Below are positions 3,512 to 34,408 of a stretch of DNA of 64,000 nucleotides, one piece after another. The first letter of the stretch is position 1, and each line of letters starts with the position of its first letter. The position numbers and the translations under genes are program-made. This DNA is from an uncultured Oscillospiraceae bacterium (GTDB taxonomy: Bacteria > Bacillota > Clostridia > Oscillospirales > Oscillospiraceae): NCBI GenBank assembly GCA_947623745.1, contig CANQHN010000012.1, positions 1 to 64,000 on the forward strand, in the 5' to 3' direction. The notes beneath the pieces were generated by a model. It was given only the letters and a program-made list of their open reading frames with translations, was not told the DNA's origin and made no database searches.

Positions 3512-5098
3512 ATGTGCGCGATCATTGGTTTCACCAGCAAGACGTTGACACAGGAGCAGATGCGGGGGTATTTCGACCGCTGCGTCTCCCGCGGGCCGGA
3601 CATGACCCGGCTGGAGGAGTCCGGCTGCGGCTGGATGGGGTTCCACCGCCTGGCCATCATGGGCCTGGACGAGACGGGGATGCAGCCCTTTGAGCGGGAC
3701 GGCGACATCGTGGTGTGCAACGGCGAGCTGTACGGCTGGCGGCCTCTGAAAAAGGAGCTGGAGGCCAAGGGGTACACCTTCGTCAGCGGCAGCGACTGCG
3801 AGCTGCTGCTGCCCATGTACCGGGAGTACGGCCTGGAGATGTTCTCCAGGATGGACGCGGAGTTCGCCCTGGTCCTCTACGACGGGAGGACCGGCGAGGT
3901 CATCGCCGCCCGGGACCCCATCGGCATCCGGCCCCTGTTCTACGGCTACCTGGAGGCCGACGGCAGCATCGTCTTTTGCAGCGAGGCCCGGGCCCTGGTG
4001 GGGATGTGCAAAGAGGTCCGCCCCTTCCCGCCGGGACACTACTACGCCGGGGGCAGGTTCGTGCGCTACGCCGACCTGACCACCGTCACCCAGTACTGCC
4101 AGGACGACCTGGAGACCGCCTGCCGCCACATCCGCGACAAGCTGGTGGACGGCATCAACAAGCGCCTGGACTCCGACGCGCCTCTGGGCTTCCTGCTCTC
4201 CGGCGGCCTGGACTCCAGCCTGGTGTGCGCGGTCTCCGCCCTGATCCTGGGCCGGAAGATCCGCACCTTCGCCATCGGCATGGACAAGGACGCCATCGAC
4301 CTGAAGTACGCCCGGATGGTGGCCGATTACATCGGCGCCGACCACACCGAGGTGTATATGACCCGGGACGACGTGATCGCCGCTCTGCCCGAGGTCATCT
4401 CCATCCTGGGCACCTGGGACATCACCACCGTCCGGGCCAGCATGGGCATGTACCTGTGCTGCAAGGCCATCCACGAGCAAACCGACATCCGGGTGCTGAT
4501 GACCGGCGAGATCTCCGACGAGCTGTTCGGCTACAAGTACACCGACTTCGCCCCCTCCCCCGAGGCCTTCCAGCAGGAGGCCAAGAAGCGGGTGGACGAG
4601 CTGTATATGTACGACGTGCTCCGGGCCGACCGGTGCATCTCTGACAACTCCATCGAGGGCCGGGTGCCCTTCGGGGACATCGCCTTTGTCAAATATGTCA
4701 TGAGCCTGGACCCCAAAATGAAAATGAACACCTACGGCATGGGCAAGTACCTGCTGCGCCACGCCTTCGAGAAGGACCACCTGCTGCCCGACGAGATCCT
4801 GTGGCGGCAGAAGGCCGCCTTCTCCGACGCGGTGGGCCACTCCATGGTGGACGACCTGAAGGCCTACGCCGAGACCTGCTACACCGACCAGGAGTTCGAG
4901 GAGAAGCGCAGGAAGTACGCCTACGGTACCCCCTTCACCAAGGAGAGCCTGCTGTACCGGGAGATCTTTGAGCAGTACTACCCCGGCCAGGCGGAGATGA
5001 TCAAGGACTTCTGGATGCCCAACAAGTCCTGGGAGGGCTGCGACGTGGACGACCCCTCCGCCCGGGTGCTGTCCAACTACGGGGACAGCGGAAAATAA
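3512..5098 (+). CDS. asnB: Asparagine synthetase (glutamine-hydrolysing)
   Basis: A 528-residue cytoplasmic enzyme making asparagine from aspartate, glutamine and ATP. I chose ATG 3512, preceded by GGAGG, because it gives MCAIIGF: after removal of Met, Cys-2 is the N-terminal nucleophile of the glutaminase domain. An earlier in-frame start at 3416 would lie inside the T-box RNA and bury that cysteine. The class II amidotransferase domain (about 1-200; CNGELYG, RDPIGIRPLFYG, FCSEARAL) is followed by the synthetase domain with the PPi-loop LLSGGLDSSL and GEISDELFGYKY. It is a single-gene unit: T-box before, terminator after. Expression should rise when tRNA-Asn is uncharged. Confidence 0.95.
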   Translation: MCAIIGFTSKTLTQEQMRGYFDRCVSRGPDMTRLEESGCGWMGFHRLAIMGLDETGMQPFERDGDIVVCNGELYGWRPLKKELEAKGYTFVSGSDCELLLPMYREYGLEMFSRMDAEFALVLYDGRTGEVIAARDPIGIRPLFYGYLEADGSIVFCSEARALVGMCKEVRPFPPGHYYAGGRFVRYADLTTVTQYCQDDLETACRHIRDKLVDGINKRLDSDAPLGFLLSGGLDSSLVCAVSALILGRKIRTFAIGMDKDAIDLKYARMVADYIGADHTEVYMTRDDVIAALPEVISILGTWDITTVRASMGMYLCCKAIHEQTDIRVLMTGEISDELFGYKYTDFAPSPEAFQQEAKKRVDELYMYDVLRADRCISDNSIEGRVPFGDIAFVKYVMSLDPKMKMNTYGMGKYLLRHAFEKDHLLPDEILWRQKAAFSDAVGHSMVDDLKAYAETCYTDQEFEEKRRKYAYGTPFTKESLLYREIFEQYYPGQAEMIKDFWMPNKSWEGCDVDDPSARVLSNYGDSGK

Positions 5099-8366: not shown

Positions 8367-9683
8367 TCAGCGGGCGACAATACGGGTCTCTGACCTTATA
8401 TTATAACCGATTTCCTGCAAATAGGCCAGCTCTTTTTTTCCGATCCGCTCCCCGGGGGCGATTACCGGCACGCCGGGGGGGTAGGGGGCGATCTGGGCGG
8501 CGGCGATCTCCCCGCAGCAGTTCGCCAGGGGGCGGGAGAGGCTGGGGGCGAACAGGGCCCGGCGCAGGGACAGCGCCCGCTCCGGCAGGGGGGGCGGGGG
8601 CAGCTTTTCGGCCCGGGGGCCGATGAGGGCGCGGTTTTGCTCCAGGGCGTCCTCCAATCGGTCCAGGTCCGCATCGGTGTCGGCGCAGGTGAGGATGCAC
8701 ACCACGTGGCCGCCGTCCTCCATCTCGGGGAACACCCCCAGCGCCTCCAGGGCGGTGGTGAGGGCGGGGCCGTCCGGGGAGCTCACCGTCAGGCGGCAGG
8801 GGTCCAGGGGCAGGGGCGGGGCCAGGCAGGGAAACCTCTCCCGCAGGGCCGCGGCGCGCCCCGCCACCCGGCGGTACTCCTTCGTCCCCTCCCGTTCCAT
8901 GTAGTCCCGGGCCAGGTCCAGGGAGGCCAGCATGGGGTAGGACGGGCTGGAGGTGCCGAAGATGGCGGCGGTGCGGCGCACCCGGTCGGGGTCGATCCCC
9001 CGGGTGAACAGCAGGGCGGACTGGCCCATGGCGGGCAGGGTCTTGTGGGCGGAGACGGCTGCCGCGTCCGCCCCGCCGAAGGCGTCGATCCCCAGGAAGG
9101 GCAGGTGGGCGCCGTGGGCGCCGTCCACCAGCAGCTTCCCGCCCCGCCGGTGGACAAGGCGGGAAATGGCGGGGATATCCGATAACAGTCCACAATATGT
9201 AGGGGAAGTAATACAGACTGTTTTGACTTCCGGGTGGGCGTCCAGGGCTTTTTCCACATCGGACGGGGAAAACGGGCCCGCTACGCCCTCCCCCTCCAGC
9301 CAGGGGCGGGGGAGATAGACCGGCTCCAGGTCCAGCAGGGCCATGGCGTGGAACACTGAGCGGTGGCACCCCCGGTCCACCAGCACTTTGTCCCCGGGGC
9401 GGCACAGCAGGGCCAGGCCGGTGTGGAGGCCCAGGGTGGAGCCGTCGGTGAGGAACTGGCAGTGGTCAAAGCCGAACCGCTCTGCCCAGAGGGCCTGGGC
9501 GGCGTCGAAGGGCTCGCCGGGCTCGTACAGGTTGCCGGTGCCGGGCAGCTCGGTGAAGTCGATGGCCGAAATCCCGGACAGCTCAGGCGCTGGCAAGGGG
9601 TTTCCCTTGTGCCCCGGCATGTGCAGGCGCAGGGTGTTTTTCCCGGCCAGGGCCCGCAGCGCGTCGTACAGCGGGGTGGGCAC
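8367..9683 (-). CDS. Orn/Lys/Arg decarboxylase family PLP enzyme
   Basis: A 438-residue fold-type I PLP enzyme of the Orn/Lys/Arg decarboxylase family (YaaO/SpeA-like), which decarboxylates basic amino acids to polyamines; the exact substrate is unknown. The start is GTG 9683, only 2 bp after the preceding stop, with GGGGGAGG upstream; the open frame continues further but only inside the HD gene. Motifs: LRLHMPGHKGN near the N-terminus, DGSTLGLHTG, the PLP aspartate region LLVDGAHGAHL, and the Schiff-base lysine in SAHKTLPAMGQ. A C-terminal decarboxylase subdomain ends with PPGVPVIAPGERIG. The tight spacing shows it is translated from the HD-holB transcript. Confidence 0.9.
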   Translation of the reverse strand: MPTPLYDALRALAGKNTLRLHMPGHKGNPLPAPELSGISAIDFTELPGTGNLYEPGEPFDAAQALWAERFGFDHCQFLTDGSTLGLHTGLALLCRPGDKVLVDRGCHRSVFHAMALLDLEPVYLPRPWLEGEGVAGPFSPSDVEKALDAHPEVKTVCITSPTYCGLLSDIPAISRLVHRRGGKLLVDGAHGAHLPFLGIDAFGGADAAAVSAHKTLPAMGQSALLFTRGIDPDRVRRTAAIFGTSSPSYPMLASLDLARDYMEREGTKEYRRVAGRAAALRERFPCLAPPLPLDPCRLTVSSPDGPALTTALEALGVFPEMEDGGHVVCILTCADTDADLDRLEDALEQNRALIGPRAEKLPPPPLPERALSLRRALFAPSLSRPLANCCGEIAAAQIAPYPPGVPVIAPGERIGKKELAYLQEIGYNIRSETRIVAR

Positions 9684-9685
9684 GG

Positions 9686-10267
9686 TCAGTCCTCCCCCTC
9701 CAGGAAGTAGGAGGCCTCCATGTCGGCGGTGGCCAGGGCGAAGGCCAGGGGGTACTTTTGTAAGGCCTGGCCCACGGTGCGGTTGTCCTCGGTGCCGGAG
9801 AAGCCCATGTGCCAGCGGATGGCCATGGCCTCCTCCCGGGTCAGGCGGATAAAGCCGTTGACGATGTACACGCTCTTCTCCCCGTGGCCGTAGGGCAGGG
9901 GGTCGTCGAAGGTGTAGGTGGGGACGGTCTGCCACTTGCCGTTCTCGTCCTTCACGTTGCGGGTGCCCTGCTTGTAGCAGCCCACCTTGCACACGTCGTG
10001 GAGCAGGGCCACGATGGCCACGGACTCGTCGGTGTACTCCAGGCCGTAGAGCTCCTGCACCCGCTCCCGCTGGAGGTAGTCCACCAGGCAGTGGTAGACG
10101 TTCAGGCTGTGCTCGCACAGGCCGCCGGGGTAGGCCCCGTGGTAGCGGGCGGAGGCGGGGGCGGTGAAGAAGTCGCTCTTGTTCTCCAGGTAGTTGAGCA
10201 GGGCGTCGGCGCCGTCCCGGGTGATGTGCTCCTTAAAAATTTCGATAAATTCCTCTTTCGCGGACAT
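9686..10267 (-). CDS. HD-domain phosphohydrolase
   Basis: A 193-residue cytoplasmic protein with an HD metal-dependent phosphohydrolase domain, first gene of the leftward block. ATG 10267 follows AGGAGGA. The metal ligands are visible as YPGGLCEHSLNVY, ALLHDVCKVG (the HD pair), RWHMGF and the late aspartate in ATADMEAS. The length and layout resemble the HD part of the exonuclease YhaM, but there is no OB domain, so the substrate (a nucleotide or RNA end) is not predictable. Confidence 0.8.
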   Translation of the reverse strand: MSAKEEFIEIFKEHITRDGADALLNYLENKSDFFTAPASARYHGAYPGGLCEHSLNVYHCLVDYLQRERVQELYGLEYTDESVAIVALLHDVCKVGCYKQGTRNVKDENGKWQTVPTYTFDDPLPYGHGEKSVYIVNGFIRLTREEAMAIRWHMGFSGTEDNRTVGQALQKYPLAFALATADMEASYFLEGED

Positions 10268-23294: not shown

Positions 23295-24614
23295 TCACTC
23301 GAACCGGCTGTTCACGTTGGCGGTGATGTCCTTGATGATCTCTTTGATCTCCGGGTCGCTCTTGACCATGTTCTCCATGCGCTCGATGGAATGGAGCACG
23401 GTGGAGTGGTCCCGGTTGTCGAACTCCCGGCCGATCTCCTTCAGGGAGAGGTTGGTCATGCTGCGGATCTGGTACATGGCGATCTGCCGGGCCAGGGCGA
23501 TGTCCTTGGTGCGGCCCTGCCCCCGGAGGATCTCCGGCTCGATGTTGTAGAACTTGCACACCTCGTCGATAATGACCCCGGCGGTGGGGACGATGTCGGA
23601 GCGGTCCTTGAACATGTCCTTCACCGCCCGGAATACAGTGTCCTTGTCCACGCTGTCCCCCATGAGCTGCTGATAGGCCATGATCTTGTTCACCGTGCCC
23701 TCGATTTGCCGGACGTTGGCGGTGATGTTCTCGGCGATGAGCTGCAGCAGGGGCTCGGGCAGGTCTACCCCCATGCGGATGGCCTTGTTCTTGATGATGG
23801 CCATGCGGGTCTCGTAGTCGGGGGGCTGGATGTCGGCCAGCAGGCCCTGCTCGAACCGGGTCTTTAACCGGTCCTCCAGCCGGAGCATCTCCTTGGGGGG
23901 GCGGTCGGAGGTGAATACGATCTGTTTTTTCAGCTCATACAGGGAGTTGAAGGTGTGGAACAGCTCCTCCTGGGTGGAGGGCCGGCCGGCGATGAACTGC
24001 ACGTCGTCCATGAGCAGCACGTCGGCAAAGCGGTATTTGTCCCGGAACTCCTGGTTGCGCCGCTCCCGGATGGCCTGGACCAGCTCGTTGGTGAAGGTCT
24101 CGCCCCGGACGTAGACCACCGACATCTCCGGGCTGCGCTGGTGGAGCAGGTGGGCAATGGCGTAGAGCAGGTGGGTCTTGCCCAGGCCGGACTCGCCGTA
24201 GATGTAGAGGGGGTTGTAGACCTGGCCCGGGTTCTCCGCCACCGCCAGGGCGGCGGCGTGGGCGAACTTGTTGGAGGAGCCCACCACAAAGCGCTCGAAG
24301 GTGTAGTCCTCGGTGCCGGAGAGGGCGTCGCCGGGCTTGGACTGGCCGTCCTGGTAGGCGGCCAGGTCCCCCTCGGTGAGCACCTCCACCTGGAACTGGG
24401 CGGAGAACAGCTCCTGCAGGGCGCTCTGGATGGCGGAGAGGTAGCGGTTGGCGATGATGTCCCGCTTGAAGCGGGTGGGGGAGTAGAGGACGAATTTGTC
24501 CCCCTCCAGGGCCACGGCGGTGGCGTCGTCAAACCAGGTGTGGATGGTGGTGGCGGTCAGGTCGGTCTGCAGCAGAGCCAGGACCTTGGCCCATACGTCG
24601 GCGGCAGGATTCAT
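23295..24614 (-). CDS. dnaA: Chromosomal replication initiator DnaA
   Basis: A 439-residue AAA+ initiator that binds DnaA boxes and opens the origin. Domain I is about residues 1-75, a short linker follows, then AAA+ motifs YGESGLGKTHLLYAI (Walker A) and VLLMDDVQFIAGR (Walker B). The C-terminal domain carries the DNA-binding signature DIALARQIAMYQIR followed by DNRDHSTVLHSIERM. ATG 24614 follows GGAGC. An 8-bp hairpin (24629-24636 with 24643-24650) lies just upstream in the leader. Confidence 0.97.
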   Translation of the reverse strand: MNPAADVWAKVLALLQTDLTATTIHTWFDDATAVALEGDKFVLYSPTRFKRDIIANRYLSAIQSALQELFSAQFQVEVLTEGDLAAYQDGQSKPGDALSGTEDYTFERFVVGSSNKFAHAAALAVAENPGQVYNPLYIYGESGLGKTHLLYAIAHLLHQRSPEMSVVYVRGETFTNELVQAIRERRNQEFRDKYRFADVLLMDDVQFIAGRPSTQEELFHTFNSLYELKKQIVFTSDRPPKEMLRLEDRLKTRFEQGLLADIQPPDYETRMAIIKNKAIRMGVDLPEPLLQLIAENITANVRQIEGTVNKIMAYQQLMGDSVDKDTVFRAVKDMFKDRSDIVPTAGVIIDEVCKFYNIEPEILRGQGRTKDIALARQIAMYQIRSMTNLSLKEIGREFDNRDHSTVLHSIERMENMVKSDPEIKEIIKDITANVNSRFE

Positions 24615-28756: not shown

Positions 28757-28760
28757 AAAA

Positions 28761-28795
28761 CGGCCCCCGGACAGTCTGTCCGGGGGCCGCGCTTT
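28761..28795 (+). terminator. Terminator after the CBS gene
   Basis: A perfect 13-bp stem (28761-28773 with 28777-28789), loop GTC, followed by CGCTTTT. The A-rich left side lets it also end the convergent murE-argB operon. Confidence 0.9.
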
Positions 28796-28806: not shown

Positions 28807-31179
28807 TCAGGGGGTGATGGTGGTGCCCTGCACCCGCTGGTGGAGCATTTGAAGCAGCAGGGCGTGCTCCACCCGGCCGTCCAGGATGGACACCTCCCCC
28901 ACGCCGGCCTGGATGGCGTGGATACAGCCCCGGACCTTGGGCACCATGCCCCCGGCGATGAGGCCGCTGGAGATGAGCTCCTCGGCCCGCTTCACGTCCA
29001 TGTGGGGGACGGCGGTCTTTTGGTTGTGGCTGTCGATGAGGATGCCCCCCACGTCGGTGAGGAAGATGAGCTGGTCGGCCCCCATGGCCTCGGCCACGGC
29101 CCGGGCGGCGTCGTCGGCGTTGCAGTTGAACCCCTCCCCGTCGGCCCCCAGGGCGATGGGGGACACCACGGGCAGGAACCCGGCGTCCAGCAGGGTGTGG
29201 AGCACCTTGGGGTCCACCCTGGTGATCTCCCCCACCCGGCCCATGGCCGGGTTTTTGAAGTCGGCGGTGAGCAGGCCGCCGTCCTTGCCGGACAGGCCCA
29301 CGGCGGACACCTCCAGCGCCTCCAGGGCGGCCACGATGGACTTGTTCACCTGGGCGGACAGGGCCATCTCCGCCGCGTCTAGGGCGGGCGTGTCGGTGAC
29401 CCGGTAGCCGTTTTCAAAGCGGGTGGGCACGTTCAGCTTCTCCAGCAGGGCGGTGATGTGCTTGCCGCCCCCGTGGACCAGCACCACCCGGGCGCCCACC
29501 ATCCGCAGGGCGGCCACGTCCTGCAAGGTGGTGTCCGCCGCGGCCCCGGCCCCGATGGCCGCGCCGCCGTACTTCACCACCACCGTGCTGCCCTCCGCCC
29601 GCTTCAGGATGGGCAGGATGGACAGCAGGGAGCGCACCTTCTCCAGCCCGTCCAGGCCGTGGCGCACGTCGTACTCCTGGAGGCAGGTGTGGACATACTC
29701 CACGTCGGAGGGGCAGTCGATATACGCCCGGCCCCGCTTCTGGCGGGTCTCCGCCCCCTTGCCGGTGATGAGCAGCACAGAGGGCTCCCGGCAGCCCAGG
29801 ATAGCCTGGCGGATAGCCTCGCCCCGGTTGGGCTCGATGGAGAACTGGCAGTCCTGGGCGGCCACGTAGGTTGAGATCTCCCGGCAGATGGACAGGGTGT
29901 CCTCCTCCCCGGAGTCCTCCTCGGTGAGCACCACCAGGTCGGAGTATTTCCCGGAGACCTCCCCCAGGTCCCGGCGGCGGTCCAGGGCCTTGAGCCCGGG
30001 ACAGCCGAACACGGTGACGATGCGCCGGCCGGGGTACTCCGCCTTCACGGAGCGGAAGAGGGTCTCGAAGCTCATGCGGTTGTGGGCGTAGTCCACGATG
30101 GCGGTGACGGTCTCGTCGGCGTTGGAGTAGACCTCCATCCGGCCGGGCACCCGGGCCTTCATCAGCCCCACGTACACGCACCGCTCGGGGATGTCCAGAG
30201 CCTGGCACACGGCGATGGCGGCCAGGGCGTTCTCCACGTTGAACAGCCCCGGCATGGTCAGCCGGAACTGGCGCAGGAACCGGCGGCTGCGCACCCGGAA
30301 CAGGATGTCGCCCCCCTGCTTGTGGACCTGGTCGGCGAAGATGTCGGCCTCCGGGTCCCGCTGGGAGAAGGTGATCACCGGGCCGCCGGCGGCCTGGGCG
30401 GCGGCCAGCACCCGACCGGCGTGGTCACAGTCCAGATTGACGCACTTCACCTTCGCCTGGGCGAAGATGCGCAGCTTGGAGGTGAAGTAGTCCTCGAAGT
30501 CCGGGTGCTCGATGGGGGAGATGTGGTCGGTGCCGATGTTCAGAAAGCAGGCGGCGGCGAACCGGGTGCACAGGGTGCGGTGGTACTTCAGGGCCTGGCT
30601 GGACACCTCCATGGTCAGGTAGGGGATGCCGGCGTCCACCGCGTGGGCGAAGTGGCGCTGGAGCTCCAGGGGCTCGGGGGTGGTCAGGTGGGACTCGAAC
30701 CGCTCCGCGCCGTCGTAGGTGTCAATGGAGGAGATGACGCCGCTCTCCCCCCTCCCCTGCTCGGCCAGGTACTCGTCCAGGATATATTTCAGGTAGTAGG
30801 TGGTGGAGGACTTGCCCTTGGTGCCGGTGATGCCGATGACGCTGAGCTTTTGGGAGGGGTGGTCGTAGTACAGGTCGGCCATGGGGGCCAACACCTGCCG
30901 CATATCGGACGCCAGCAGGCAGGGCAGGTCCACCTCCGGGTAGGGCTTTTCAGAGATGTAGGCGAAGGCGCCCTTCTCTTTGGCCTGGGCCAGGTACTCC
31001 GCCTTAAAGTGGGCGCCCTTGCACAGGAACAGGGTGCCGGGGACCACGTCCTGGGAGTCGTAGGACACCAGCTCCACCGGGGCGGACAGGTCCAGCCCCG
31101 CCGGGACGGGGGCGGTCAGCAGGCCCTTCTGCTCCAGGAGGGCGGCGTAATCTTGCAGGGGACGGATGGGGAGATCCAT
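28807..31179 (-). CDS. MurE-type Mur ligase fused to N-acetylglutamate kinase (ArgB)
   Basis: A single 790-residue chain with two enzymes. Residues 1-515 are a Mur ligase of the MurE type: ATP loop TGTKGKSST (118-126), LTTPEPLELQ, MEVSSQALKYHRT, GLFNVENALAAIAV, DYAHNRMSFETL and GKGAETRQ (473-480). Where meso-diaminopimelate MurE has DNPR, this has EEDSGEED (420-427), and the region RRRDLGEVSGKYSDL resembles lysine-type MurE of lactic bacteria. Residues about 530-790 are a full-length acetylglutamate kinase: VVVKYGGAAI, VLVHGGGKHI, ENGYRVTD, FNCNADDAA, IFLTDVGG and GGMVPKV. All key kinase residues look intact. ArgB starts ornithine/arginine synthesis, so the third-position amino acid may be ornithine (or lysine). 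Last gene of the D-aspartate operon, 18 bp after the racemase. Confidence 0.88.
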   Translation of the reverse strand: MDLPIRPLQDYAALLEQKGLLTAPVPAGLDLSAPVELVSYDSQDVVPGTLFLCKGAHFKAEYLAQAKEKGAFAYISEKPYPEVDLPCLLASDMRQVLAPMADLYYDHPSQKLSVIGITGTKGKSSTTYYLKYILDEYLAEQGRGESGVISSIDTYDGAERFESHLTTPEPLELQRHFAHAVDAGIPYLTMEVSSQALKYHRTLCTRFAAACFLNIGTDHISPIEHPDFEDYFTSKLRIFAQAKVKCVNLDCDHAGRVLAAAQAAGGPVITFSQRDPEADIFADQVHKQGGDILFRVRSRRFLRQFRLTMPGLFNVENALAAIAVCQALDIPERCVYVGLMKARVPGRMEVYSNADETVTAIVDYAHNRMSFETLFRSVKAEYPGRRIVTVFGCPGLKALDRRRDLGEVSGKYSDLVVLTEEDSGEEDTLSICREISTYVAAQDCQFSIEPNRGEAIRQAILGCREPSVLLITGKGAETRQKRGRAYIDCPSDVEYVHTCLQEYDVRHGLDGLEKVRSLLSILPILKRAEGSTVVVKYGGAAIGAGAAADTTLQDVAALRMVGARVVLVHGGGKHITALLEKLNVPTRFENGYRVTDTPALDAAEMALSAQVNKSIVAALEALEVSAVGLSGKDGGLLTADFKNPAMGRVGEITRVDPKVLHTLLDAGFLPVVSPIALGADGEGFNCNADDAARAVAEAMGADQLIFLTDVGGILIDSHNQKTAVPHMDVKRAEELISSGLIAGGMVPKVRGCIHAIQAGVGEVSILDGRVEHALLLQMLHQRVQGTTITP

Positions 31180-31197
31180 AGCGCACCTCGTTTCCAG

Positions 31198-31911
31198 CTA
31201 TTTCATGAAGATGGTCCGCAGGGGCCGGTGGCAGGCCTCGATGGCCCGGTCGGCCAGCACGGCCATGGCGTCGGTGTAGAAGGGAGGCAGGTGGTTCTGG
31301 GCGGCGAACACGGACAGCTCCGTGCAGGCCAGCACCCCGCAGTCACAGCCCTGGGCGATCAGGTCCCGGTGGACCGCGTCGAACTTGGAGCGGTCCCCCT
31401 CCTTGCCGGCCTTCACATCATCGTAGATGATGGACATGACCAGCGCCTGGGCCGCCGGGGAGGGGACGACCGCCTGGATCCCCAAGGCGGAAAATTCCTT
31501 CTGGTATAATCCGGTCTGGATCGTCCCGTCCGTAGCCAGGATGCCGGGGCGTTTCCTGCCCTGGGCGGCCAGGACCTTGGCGGTCTCCCGGATCATGTGG
31601 AGGATGGGGATGTGGACCTGCTCCTGCACCTGATCCAGAAAGTAGTGGGAGGTATTGCAGGGCACGGCGATGACGGTGCACCCCGCCGCCTCCAGCAGCC
31701 GGGCGTCCTCCGTCAGGCGGCGCAGGGAGGCCGAGGTGTCCCCGCTGAGGATGGCCGCCGTGCGGTCGGGCATCTGGGCGTCGGACAGAATCAGGGCGTT
31801 GACGTGCTCCTGGTCGGTGCGGGCGTCGGTGCGGTCGATGATGAACTGATAGAACGTATTCGTCGCCTGAGGGCCCATTCCCCCAAGGACACCTAGACGG
31901 TAATCAGGCAT
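31198..31911 (-). CDS. Aspartate/glutamate racemase family protein
   Basis: A 237-residue cofactor-independent racemase that interconverts L- and D-forms of an acidic amino acid by two cysteines. Both are visible: C85 in AVPCNTSHYF and C196 in LACTELSVF. The N-terminus LGVLGGMGPQATNTFY is the aspartate-racemase-type start. Placed 18 bp downstream of a D-aspartate ligase-like gene, it most likely supplies D-aspartate; this pairing mirrors the D-aspartate ligase and racemase pair known in Enterococcus faecium. ATG 31911 follows CAGGAG. Confidence 0.9.
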   Translation of the reverse strand: MPDYRLGVLGGMGPQATNTFYQFIIDRTDARTDQEHVNALILSDAQMPDRTAAILSGDTSASLRRLTEDARLLEAAGCTVIAVPCNTSHYFLDQVQEQVHIPILHMIRETAKVLAAQGRKRPGILATDGTIQTGLYQKEFSALGIQAVVPSPAAQALVMSIIYDDVKAGKEGDRSKFDAVHRDLIAQGCDCGVLACTELSVFAAQNHLPPFYTDAMAVLADRAIEACHRPLRTIFMK

Positions 31912-31929
31912 AAATGAACTCCTGCGCAG

Positions 31930-33141
31930 TCAGTTTTTCGGGCGCGTGTTGTACTGGTTAAAGCGCTTGATGTGGCCCAGCTGGCTCTTCAGGACGCGGG
32001 GGTAGCGCCCGCCGCCGTAGTCCGGCCGGTACTCCAGGGAGTGGGTGTCCGCCCCGGCGCGGATGAGGGCCTTCATCTGGGGGTGGTAGGACCTGGGGAT
32101 GAACTGGAAGGCCAGGAACCGGGGGATCATCCGCCACAGGGACTGGTTTTTGACGATGGTGAAGGGCAGGTCCCTCCCCTCCAGCCGGTCCTCCACCAGC
32201 AGCTTTGCGATGTTGTGGCCCGAGCCGGTGACGTAGTAGTTGCTCCGGCCCTGGCGGCAGTTGATTTCAAAGAGCTTGTACTTGCCGTCCCGGGAGTCGT
32301 ACTTGATGTCGAAATTGGAGAAGCCGGTGTAGTCCAGGGCCTCCAGCAGCTCCCGGATCTTCAGGGACAGGGCCTCGTCGTGCTCGGTGATGATGACGGC
32401 GTGGTTGCCGATGCCGTGGGGGGAGTGCTCCTCCAGCAGCACGTGGCCCAGGCACATCAGCTTCACCTTCCGGTTCCGGTCGGAGTAGCAGGTCATGACC
32501 CGCATAAAGGTGTCGTCCCCGGGGATGAACTCCTGCAAAATCATGTGGTCGGGGTAGCCGGCGGCGTACACCGCGTCCAGGGAGGAGAGCAGTTCCTCCC
32601 AACTCTGGCAGACGAACACCTTTTTGATGCCGGGGAAGTCGTGCTGCCAGTAGGCCACGGAGTCGGCGGGCTTGGCGATATAGGGCGGGCCCCAGGGCAG
32701 GGTGAAGTCGTGGCCCATGGACTTGTCGTAGATGAAGGTGGCCGGGTGGTCGATGCCGAACTGGTCGCACAGGGCGTAGAACTGCTCCTTGTTGATCAGC
32801 CGGTCCAGCAGGTCCCCGTCGATATAGGGGGCCACGGCGTTTTTGGGCAGGGAGTCCTTCACATGGGCGGCCAGCTGCACGTAGCTGTCCCCGCAGCCGA
32901 TGACCAGCACCGTCTTGTCGGGGAATTCGGCGCACACCTTCTCGATGTTGGCCCGGAAGGCCCCCTCGTCCTCGTTCTCCTTGCAGATGCGGTAGTCGAT
33001 GATGGAGCTGTGGGCGCAGGGGAAGGTGAAGTAGCGGCCGTAGGCGATGGACTTGACGCCGTAGGCCTCGTGGAAGGCCCGGGCCACGCTGTATACGTTG
33101 ATGTCGCCGCCGAACAGCAGCGGCTGGAAGGACTGGGACAT
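31930..33141 (-). CDS. ATP-grasp ligase, D-aspartate ligase-like
   Basis: A 403-residue ATP-grasp carboxylate-amine ligase. From memory it closely resembles the E. faecium D-aspartate ligase (Aslfm), which adds D-aspartate to the lysine side chain of the UDP-MurNAc-pentapeptide: PLLFGGDINVYSVARAFHEAYG, APYIDGDLLDRLINKEQFY, IAKPADSVAYW, LQEFIPGDDTFMRV, MCLGHVLLEEHSPHGIGNH, FSNFDIKYDSRDGKYKLFEI and CRQGRSNYYVTGSG are all at matching places. The last two blocks hold the metal-binding acidic/Asn residues. I chose ATG 33141, nine bases after AGAGG; an upstream GTG (33165) lacks a site. The racemase and MurE genes follow in the same operon. Confidence 0.85.
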   Translation of the reverse strand: MSQSFQPLLFGGDINVYSVARAFHEAYGVKSIAYGRYFTFPCAHSSIIDYRICKENEDEGAFRANIEKVCAEFPDKTVLVIGCGDSYVQLAAHVKDSLPKNAVAPYIDGDLLDRLINKEQFYALCDQFGIDHPATFIYDKSMGHDFTLPWGPPYIAKPADSVAYWQHDFPGIKKVFVCQSWEELLSSLDAVYAAGYPDHMILQEFIPGDDTFMRVMTCYSDRNRKVKLMCLGHVLLEEHSPHGIGNHAVIITEHDEALSLKIRELLEALDYTGFSNFDIKYDSRDGKYKLFEINCRQGRSNYYVTGSGHNIAKLLVEDRLEGRDLPFTIVKNQSLWRMIPRFLAFQFIPRSYHPQMKALIRAGADTHSLEYRPDYGGGRYPRVLKSQLGHIKRFNQYNTRPKN

Positions 33142-33181
33142 GTCAAAAAACCTCTTTCCGGTCACAGACCGAATTTTTTCT

Positions 33182-34246
33182 TTACCGGTACTCGATGACG
33201 AACCCCTTGGCGTACAGGGGGTCGATGTCGAAGGTGGCCACGTCCCCGGCGGAGCACTTCAGGTCGGTGACGTTCACCACCGTCTCGGTGGCGCCGATGC
33301 GGCCGATGACCCGGGCCCGCTGGCCCTGGATGAGGACGCTGGCCCGGCGGGCGCGGCGCCAGCGGGCCAGCATGGCCCAGAAGCCCCCCTCCCGGGGGCG
33401 CTCGATGCCGTAGCCGTTCTGGTAGCCCACGGGCAGCACCGCCACCCGGGTGGGCTTTTTCAGGGTGACGGGTTTGTCCACCCCCACGGTGTGGCCCTTG
33501 GGCAGCCAGCGCACCTCGGAGATCTCCACCTCGCCCTGGCCCACGGCGGACAGCCCGTCGTCGGCGGTGCGGCGGCAGCGGCCCAGCAGCACCGACCCGG
33601 CCCGCACCGCGTCCAGCCGGGTGAAGTCCTTGTGCATCAGGGCGAAGGAGCCGGCGGCATGGACGGTGCCGGTCTCGAACCCGGCGGCGTGGATGGCGTC
33701 CAGCACCTGCTGGAACTGGCTGAGCTGCTCCTGGCAGCCCTCCCCCTTGGGGGCGGAGTGGAGCTGGGTGTAGATGCCGGACAGGGCCACGTTGGGCAGG
33801 GAGCGGTAGGCCAGCAGGATCTTCTCCGGCTCGCTGACCAGAAAGCCGCCGAACCCCATGCCGGTGTCCACCTGGATGTGGGCCTCGGCCACGGTGGAGC
33901 GGTTCTCCGCCAGGGCGTTGAGGGCCATGCCGGTGTCCACCGAGGAGATGGTGCACACCACGTTCAGGTCCACCAGCCGCTCCAGTTCCTCCCGGTTGGT
34001 GGTGGCCCGGAGCATCAGGATCTCCTCGTCCACGAAGCCGGCCCTGCGCAGGGCCTCGGCCTCCTCCACCTCGCTGACGGCGAACCGGCCGATCCCCTCG
34101 TCCCGGAGCAGGCGGGCCAGCTGGGCGATGCCGGCGCCGCCGCCGTCCCCGGAGAGCACGGCGTACACCGCGGCGCTGCCCGATTTCTCCTTGACGACGC
34201 GGATGTTGTTCTTCACGGAGGAGCGCTTGATGATCAGCTTACGCAT
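33182..34246 (-). CDS. Alanine racemase homologue lacking the PLP lysine
   Basis: A 354-residue protein with the full alanine racemase architecture: N-terminal TIM-barrel (FAVSEVEEAEALRRAGF, EAHIQVDTGMGFGGF, VHAAGSFALM, RAGSVLLG) and C-terminal beta domain (VLPVGYQNGYGIER, VIGRIGATETVVNVTD). But the PLP motif AVvKAnAYGHG reads AVLSGDGGGAG: the Schiff-base lysine is serine, the tyrosine glycine and the histidine alanine. The codons confirm it (TCC at the lysine site). Normal PLP racemisation is therefore unlikely. First gene of the D-aspartate operon; it may bind an amino acid or peptide, act as a partner protein, or use another chemistry. ATG 34246 chosen over GTG 34291, which has no ribosome binding site. 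Confidence 0.82.
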   Translation of the reverse strand: MRKLIIKRSSVKNNIRVVKEKSGSAAVYAVLSGDGGGAGIAQLARLLRDEGIGRFAVSEVEEAEALRRAGFVDEEILMLRATTNREELERLVDLNVVCTISSVDTGMALNALAENRSTVAEAHIQVDTGMGFGGFLVSEPEKILLAYRSLPNVALSGIYTQLHSAPKGEGCQEQLSQFQQVLDAIHAAGFETGTVHAAGSFALMHKDFTRLDAVRAGSVLLGRCRRTADDGLSAVGQGEVEISEVRWLPKGHTVGVDKPVTLKKPTRVAVLPVGYQNGYGIERPREGGFWAMLARWRRARRASVLIQGQRARVIGRIGATETVVNVTDLKCSAGDVATFDIDPLYAKGFVIEYR

Positions 34247-34408
34247 GGAGGCGGCCCCCTTTTCTCTGTCTGTACGCGCATATCTGGACACTTTATACCC
34301 ATTGTAACCATGCTAACACTTTATTTTACCACCGGAGGCGGAAAAAGGCAATGGGAAATGGGGGCGGTCCGGCCCGGCGGCCCCTGAAATTTATTGCTTT
34401 GGCCGCCC

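Follow-up and report, generated by a model that had tools for sequence, protein, structure and literature searches.

In Lactococcus lactis, the genes aslA and racD belong to one operon; AslA, an enzyme of the ATP-grasp kind, joins D-aspartate (D-Asp) to the lysine of the peptidoglycan stem, and AsnH amidates the D-Asp (according to the available extract of PMC4155827). In this study, we describe a comparable four-gene locus in a stretch of 64,000 nucleotides, hereafter the window, from contig CANQHN010000012.1 (C12) of the 3.05-Mb genome of an uncultured Oscillospiraceae bacterium (GCA_947623745.1). The four genes occupy positions 28807 to 34246 of the minus strand and encode an alanine-racemase homologue, an ATP-grasp ligase, an aspartate/glutamate racemase and a chain in which MurE is joined to the N-acetylglutamate kinase ArgB. 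We consider it likely that they form a cassette for A4-type peptidoglycan, combining L-ornithine (L-Orn) or L-lysine (L-Lys) with D-Asp, and that this cassette stands beside an ordinary diaminopimelate-class pathway, with the kinase as an optional accessory and the alanine-racemase homologue as a non-catalytic partner.

The original prediction had described four same-strand genes spaced 40, 18 and 18 bp, and their coordinates, strand and gaps were all reproduced with the starts that we chose. The alanine-racemase homologue (33182..34246, 354 amino acids) carries the domains Ala_racemase_N and Ala_racemase_C. It is followed by the ATP-grasp ligase (31930..33141, 403 amino acids from an ATG that has a stretch resembling a ribosome-binding site; a GTG in the same frame occurs at 33165), the aspartate/glutamate racemase family protein (31198..31911, 237 amino acids) and the MurE-ArgB fusion (28807..31179, 790 amino acids without an internal stop), in which the matches to both families fall within one chain, as had been proposed. 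A promoter-like site of the sigma-A type, with TG ahead of its -10 element (TTGCCT-17-TAAAAT), lies at 34323..34351, where one such site was found in the region scanned against 0.5 expected in shuffles, and a predicted intrinsic terminator with a 14-bp stem and a T run (28760..28790) closes the operon; all of these features are on the minus strand. Because of the promoter-like site and the terminator, the four genes look like one transcription unit.

The MurE domain of the fusion (residues 1-505; 29665..31179, minus strand) contains Mur_ligase_M and Mur_ligase_C and scores 286.8 bits on the general murE model TIGR01085 (cut-off 257.3). According to the available extract of PMC3829189, the Asn and Arg of the DNPR motif hold the distal carboxylate of diaminopimelate. 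In the window, E-E-D-S-G replaces D-D-N-P-R, and operon-type MurEs read E/D-D-S/P/A-G/E at the DNPR position: the arginine is found in none of 108 rows, which count some genomes twice because the genus set and the named set were both used, and in none of the three rows of f6, a distant cassette. DNPR itself is read in 18 of 18 canonical MurE rows and in 10 of 10 rows of a second kind, termed type II below. Moreover, the signatures TGTKGK, CKGxxFK, SSQA and SPIEHP are common to the operon MurE and an Enterococcus faecalis protein annotated as an L-Lys ligase. The absence of DNPR and the signatures of an annotated lysine ligase led us to conclude in favour of a diamino acid that lacks a distal carboxylate, lysine or ornithine. 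Placement of the operon MurE outside the DNPR diaminopimelate class is supported by these alignments, and from its motif class the domain is predicted to add L-Lys or L-Orn. The expectation of an ornithine- or lysine-type stem is supported in this respect, the choice between the two residues being one that the sequence does not make. The NCBIfam lysine and diaminopimelate models were tried as arbiters and set aside, since the operon MurE reaches neither cut-off; it lies under every diaminopimelate equivalog cut-off among the 25 of 48 families listed, and because the cut-off of the L-lysine equivalog NF010628 is also missed, we term it Lys/Orn-like and do not count it as a member of that equivalog. 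In Collinsella aerofaciens, asnB lies directly upstream of a non-DNPR MurE (L221:3892-7446), and the C. aerofaciens MurE is the best match of the window MurE in the plasmid collection (40%); a literature search on the Collinsella wall type gave no usable statement.

The ATP-grasp protein matches Pfam and NCBIfam families weakly, below cut-off, and its assignment follows from homology. It is 41% identical over 320 amino acids to a carboxylate-amine ligase of Latilactobacillus curvatus, and 33-38% identical over the alignment to three lactobacillar homologues; a tblastn search with a distant homologue (P0005) recovered three lactobacillar proteins at 36-41%, two annotated as carboxylate-amine ligase and one as hypothetical. 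The comparison was made with these lactobacillar proteins and not with AslA of L. lactis or Aslfm of Enterococcus faecium. We take the three lactobacilli compared to have D-Asp bridges. In L. curvatus, the ligase gene sits after a gene for an amino-acid racemase that shares 36% identity with the racemase of the window, and in L. crispatus, the homologue sits after asnB. A structure model of the ligase (pLDDT 67.5) has as its top PDB matches the ATP-grasp enzymes GAR synthetase, PurK and PylC at TM scores of 0.4-0.55, and the matches include L-amino-acid ligases; a profile search of the PDB sequences with the ligase gave no match. By homology, the protein belongs with the D-aspartate ligases of the AslA type, with use of D-Asp as a prediction. 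Its companion racemase scores 212.3 bits on TIGR00035 (cut-off 93.1) and belongs to the Asp_Glu_race family, and the active-site motifs CNT and C[T/S]E (CNT and CTE in the window) occur in 66 of 66 racemase matches. The family score and the two cysteines place it among the aspartate racemases, with aspartate as the predicted substrate. The L. curvatus homology and the racemase linkage thus uphold the earlier pairing of a D-aspartate-type ligase with an Asp/Glu racemase. The median ratio of nonsynonymous to synonymous substitution rates (dN/dS) is 0.23 for the ligase (559 of 595 pairs) and 0.20 for the racemase (516 of 561 pairs), pairs with dS outside 0-3 having been dropped; these NG86 values, obtained at about 66% GC, serve only for comparing genes with one another.

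The gene set recurs among relatives of the ligase. A profile search with the ATP-grasp protein found at least 522 relatives, of which the best 80 were retained as named loci; these include Lawsonibacter, Pseudoflavonifractor and Flavonifractor strains and uncultured Oscillospiraceae. An operon-type MurE lies downstream of the ligase in 66 of these 80 loci, and the racemase stands between them in 63 of the 66. Six loci have more than 2.5 kb of downstream sequence without an operon-type MurE, and the remaining eight are too short to judge. This recurrence, which answers the survey of gene order suggested with the original prediction, indicates that the grouping of the genes is not due to chance. 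Among more distant relatives, MurE, AsnB, ligase and racemase lie within 9 kb in locus G118, MurE, AsnB and ligase occur in G100, and ligase, racemase and AsnB stand together in G094 and in one Subdoligranulum record. When 398 genomes were sampled across the phylum, the ligase had matches in 26 at E 1e-5, 12 of them below 1e-90, the window's own genome included; the short flanks of these 12 contain the racemase in five, MurE in five and AsnB in one.

Several variants of the locus were also recorded. Five Intestinimonas loci (L171, L172, L179, L182 and L183) have the ligase (61-64%) with neither the racemase nor an operon-type MurE in the fetched flanks. A DUF1963-type protein cluster (Pfam assignment from one member) is present in 10 loci (e.g., L046:6896-8185) and a second cluster in four (L060, L061, L065 and L073), both mostly between the racemase and the MurE in members of the window's genus; in L046, the DUF1963-type-cluster protein occupies the place of the missing racemase.

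The genome contains a second, ordinary MurE. Its gene, which encodes DNPR, lies between a spoVD-like penicillin-binding protein gene (515.5 bits, below the cut-off of 688) and mraY, beyond which come ftsW-like and murG genes, and its product exceeds one diaminopimelate equivalog cut-off (538.7 bits vs 373). A true alr is also present, as is an argB within argJ-argB-argD. The original prediction had suggested a search for second copies of murE, argB and alr and had held that an ordinary murE elsewhere would favour an alternative or secondary product; ordinary copies of all three genes were found, so by its own reasoning such a product is favoured. Six proteins of the genome have a Mur ligase middle domain, which would fit MurC, MurD, MurF, FolC and the two MurEs, taken as a set without one-by-one assignment. 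Across the window's genus, an operon-type MurE (at least 63% identity) occurs in 44 of 64 genomes, our genome among them, and an ordinary MurE (at least 63% identity) occurs in all 44, although the matched stretches of G050 and G053 contain a stop codon. With the ordinary MurE alongside, such a cell would be able to make two stem peptides that differ in their chemistry. Fourteen of the 64 genomes have a MurE adjoined by DapF (type II), and in seven of the 14 a search at E 1e-100 recovered no other MurE; no genome has both the operon-type and the type II MurE, and the six with neither are all less than 90% complete. In the ten type II loci fetched (L087-L096, e.g., L096:5203-6051), a gene for a Cys/Met-metabolism pyridoxal phosphate (PLP) enzyme always lies upstream of DapF, and nine have a divergent AraC-type regulator; a lanthionine- or cystathionine-like residue at position 3 is conceivable for this set. 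The cassette locus itself (at most 13 kb) also holds an ordinary DNPR MurE in 17 of the 80 named loci (e.g., L128, L130, L133, L142, L143, L154 and L163); in one of the 17, L165, this MurE is on the other strand.

The ArgB domain (28807..29643, minus strand; AA_kinase) is full length and scores 240.2 bits on TIGR00761 (cut-off 151.3). Seven residues, namely two Lys, one Gly, one Arg, two Asn and one Asp, whose selection and roles we assume from the family, are intact in the window and invariant in 34 of 34 full-length copies. From 112 MurE matches, four partial ones (L053, L079, L081 and L134) were omitted and duplicates were merged, which left 84 distinct rows: 34 with a full kinase of near-constant length, 17 with a short remnant, eight intermediate, 24 with none, two of which are the f6 outgroup, and one cut by the contig end (L052), which was omitted from the tree. 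On the resulting tree of 83 rows, the four kinase states need six changes compared with 41 in shuffles, and the label "full" by itself needs four changes, of which well-supported branches make three unavoidable. With f6 as the outgroup, the ArgB half appears, on this tree, to have been gained once, at the base of the clade formed by the Oscillospiraceae, and its full form to have been lost about three times. Among full copies, the median dN/dS is 0.43 for the kinase (561 of 561 pairs) and 0.34 for the MurE part (560 of 561), and among 15 short forms, the kinase remnant reaches 0.59 vs 0.24 for MurE (105 of 105 pairs). The retained residues and this pattern suggest a kinase that is constrained where whole and relaxed once broken, and the full-length domain is probably still a working enzyme. 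Since it is truncated or absent in many carriers that keep the same MurE motif, the kinase is not needed for the core wall reaction and is an optional accessory rather than part of the cassette core. The earlier view that the kinase is tied in to feed ornithine may hold, with the residues kept in all 34 full-length copies, but the kinase cannot be a general requirement.

The alanine-racemase homologue is the remaining member of the operon. The VKANAYGHG of the true Alr of this genome reads VLSGDGGGAG in the operon homologue, and every position that aligns with the PLP lysine, Arg136, Tyr265 or Met312-Asp313 (presumed Alr numbering) is changed. The lysine motif is absent from 34 of 34 genus copies (33 aligned) and from 31 of 31 copies in named loci, two sets that partly overlap, so the name pseudo-racemase is justified for every copy examined. 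Without the catalytic lysine, the protein should not be able to work as an ordinary racemase. Among the named loci, 74 have 1.3 kb or more of upstream sequence; in 31 of these, the pseudo-racemase lies upstream of the ligase, mainly in the window's genus, with L176 from another branch. Its median dN/dS of 0.28 (534 of 561 pairs) is near the values for the ligase and the racemase, by which measure it is a maintained protein under purifying selection; it is probably a non-catalytic partner, for which the original prediction had named no role.

According to the mechanism that we propose, the Asp/Glu racemase, judged by its family and neighbours, would make D-Asp, and the MurE domain, judged by its motif class, would add L-Orn or L-Lys to UDP-MurNAc-L-Ala-D-Glu. 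The ATP-grasp enzyme, from its homology and common gene neighbours, would then ligate D-Asp to the side-chain amine of Orn or Lys, and the product would be a D-Ala4-D-Asp-(Orn/Lys)3 cross-bridge. By the logic of gene fusion, the tethered kinase, where present, may raise the ornithine supply at the ligase, which favours ornithine as the third residue. Several observations weigh against this proposal. The operon MurE scores 306.1 bits on the L-lysine equivalog, whose cut-off is 536, and the ordinary MurE scores slightly higher (320.8 bits), so that this model lends lysine no support. The racemase also exceeds the cysteate-racemase cut-off (211.3 vs 190), the L. fermentum ligase homologue has neither a racemase nor asnB adjoining, and the genome has no close AsnH-like gene (best 31%). 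In the tree, the kinase is truncated in 25 of 83 rows and, the two outgroup rows apart, absent from 22, all with the same MurE motif. The argJ-argB-argD cluster together with a lysA homologue below cut-off (270.6 vs 297.9 bits) gives no decision between ornithine and lysine, and lysA was rejected as an arbiter. Literature searches on Flavonifractor, Intestinimonas, Pseudoflavonifractor and other Oscillospiraceae yielded no wall chemistry of a carrier among the leading matches; the portion of the species description PMC6341035 that was available does not mention peptidoglycan, and in the table of PMC11382707, as far as the extract extends, Faecalibacterium is the only Oscillospiraceae genus and is given as diaminopimelate.

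The alternative that survives best retains the cassette but makes L-lysine the third residue and regards the ArgB domain as an oligomerisation or regulatory addition that feeds nothing; we hold this to be a possibility of some weight, short of probable. The MurE signatures match those of an annotated L-Lys ligase, the genome has the lysA homologue, and ArgB is lost or truncated while the MurE motif persists. In addition, the ArgB domain can be aligned from its amino-terminal helix onward with the plant, cyanobacterial and Thermotoga N-acetylglutamate kinases, which are arginine-regulated hexamers. However, an add-on that feeds nothing sits poorly with seven kinase residues intact in 34 of 34 full-length domains, a lysine wall makes it harder to see why a kinase of the ornithine pathway should be fused to a wall ligase, and the NCBIfam L-lysine cut-off is missed.

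A second proposal refines the A4-type cassette rather than opposing it: the cassette would serve the vegetative wall and the ordinary MurE a diaminopimelate spore cortex. In Lysinibacillus (Bacillus) sphaericus, the vegetative wall is of the Lys-D-Asp kind and the spore cortex is of the diaminopimelate kind; the literature searched for this precedent did not yield it, which counts against its use here. In each of 34 loci, the pseudo-racemase gene is preceded, at a distance of 41-97 bp, by a promoter-like site with a 17-bp spacer and TG before the -10, and these sites match 8.9 of 12 positions on average vs 7.0 in base-shuffled sequence; such housekeeping-type sites point to expression of the cassette in growing cells. 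The ordinary murE adjoins the spoVD-like gene mentioned above, and SpoIVA is encoded in the genome of the window and, among the 44 genomes of the genus that have an operon-type MurE, in 39. However, genus members that lack the operon-type MurE encode SpoIVA as well (57 of the 64 genomes overall), and it was rejected as an arbiter because it fails to separate the two groups. We advance this division of labour tentatively and with some doubt. Its fullest form, with two switched position-3 chemistries (a vegetative L-Orn/D-Asp wall and a diaminopimelate cortex), a tethered kinase that makes ornithine at the ligase and a dead racemase as a structural or regulatory subunit, we consider unlikely as a whole.

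It is very unlikely, in our opinion, that the operon MurE still adds meso-diaminopimelate and that the ligase places D-Asp on the amine of that residue. NCBIfam diaminopimelate models are among its best matches and the nearest solved MurE chains are diaminopimelate enzymes; however, those models listed are all below cut-off, neither the Arg nor the Asn of DNPR is retained in any of the 108 rows, and AslA of L. lactis works on lysine (PMC4155827, available extract). Least probable of all is a free or secreted D-Asp peptide with no part in the wall, for which the ordinary pathway alongside can be cited and nothing direct, whereas the AslA enzymes studied act on wall precursors (same extract of PMC4155827) and the operon consists of these four genes only.

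With regard to its surroundings, the operon is flanked by what we take, from sequence, to be dnaA (23295-24614) on one side and miaB and mutS on the other. An asparagine-synthase-like protein is encoded at 3512-5098 (plus strand), and this AsnB-like gene was not assigned to the cassette because of its 25% identity, over 395 aligned positions, to the amidotransferase of the f6 cassette. An open frame at 8367-10118 (minus strand) resembles, by sequence recognition only, the Orn/Lys/Arg decarboxylase family.

Should the A4-type reading hold, there is a group of gut commensals whose cells produce wall material of a non-diaminopimelate class, and what NOD1 and NOD2 sense would change with it; in the available extract of PMC11382707, NOD1 agonists are linked to peptides that contain diaminopimelate or lanthionine. 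For a family that has been little analysed, the chemistry at position 3 also becomes open to direct tests. Furthermore, the locus provides an unusual fusion, which would couple the supply of an amino acid to the synthesis of the wall, and a conserved pseudoenzyme whose functional context is narrow. A literature search for a MurE-ArgB fusion returned nothing relevant among the leading matches; the components are of known kinds, and their combination and the fusion were not met in the literature searched.

The alanine racemases share both Pfam domains with the window homologue, which differs from them in the catalytic lysine and four further aligned positions. Compared with N-acetylglutamate kinases, the ArgB domain is whole by sequence and has the seven checked residues, but it is fused to MurE and is additional to the argB of argJ-argB-argD. 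Like the L-Lys/L-Orn MurE ligases of the E. faecalis type, the window MurE lacks the DNPR arginine and has the four shared signatures; unlike them, it is the second MurE of its genome, carries a carboxy-terminal kinase domain and falls below the L-lysine equivalog cut-off. The closest system is that of AslA/RacD in L. lactis and Aslfm in E. faecium, with which the window cassette has in common an ATP-grasp ligase and an Asp/Glu racemase in one operon and, in some distant relatives, an amidotransferase of the AsnB/AsnH type. The window cassette differs from that system in having its own non-DNPR MurE, the ArgB fusion, a pseudo-racemase and a host that also possesses a DNPR MurE.

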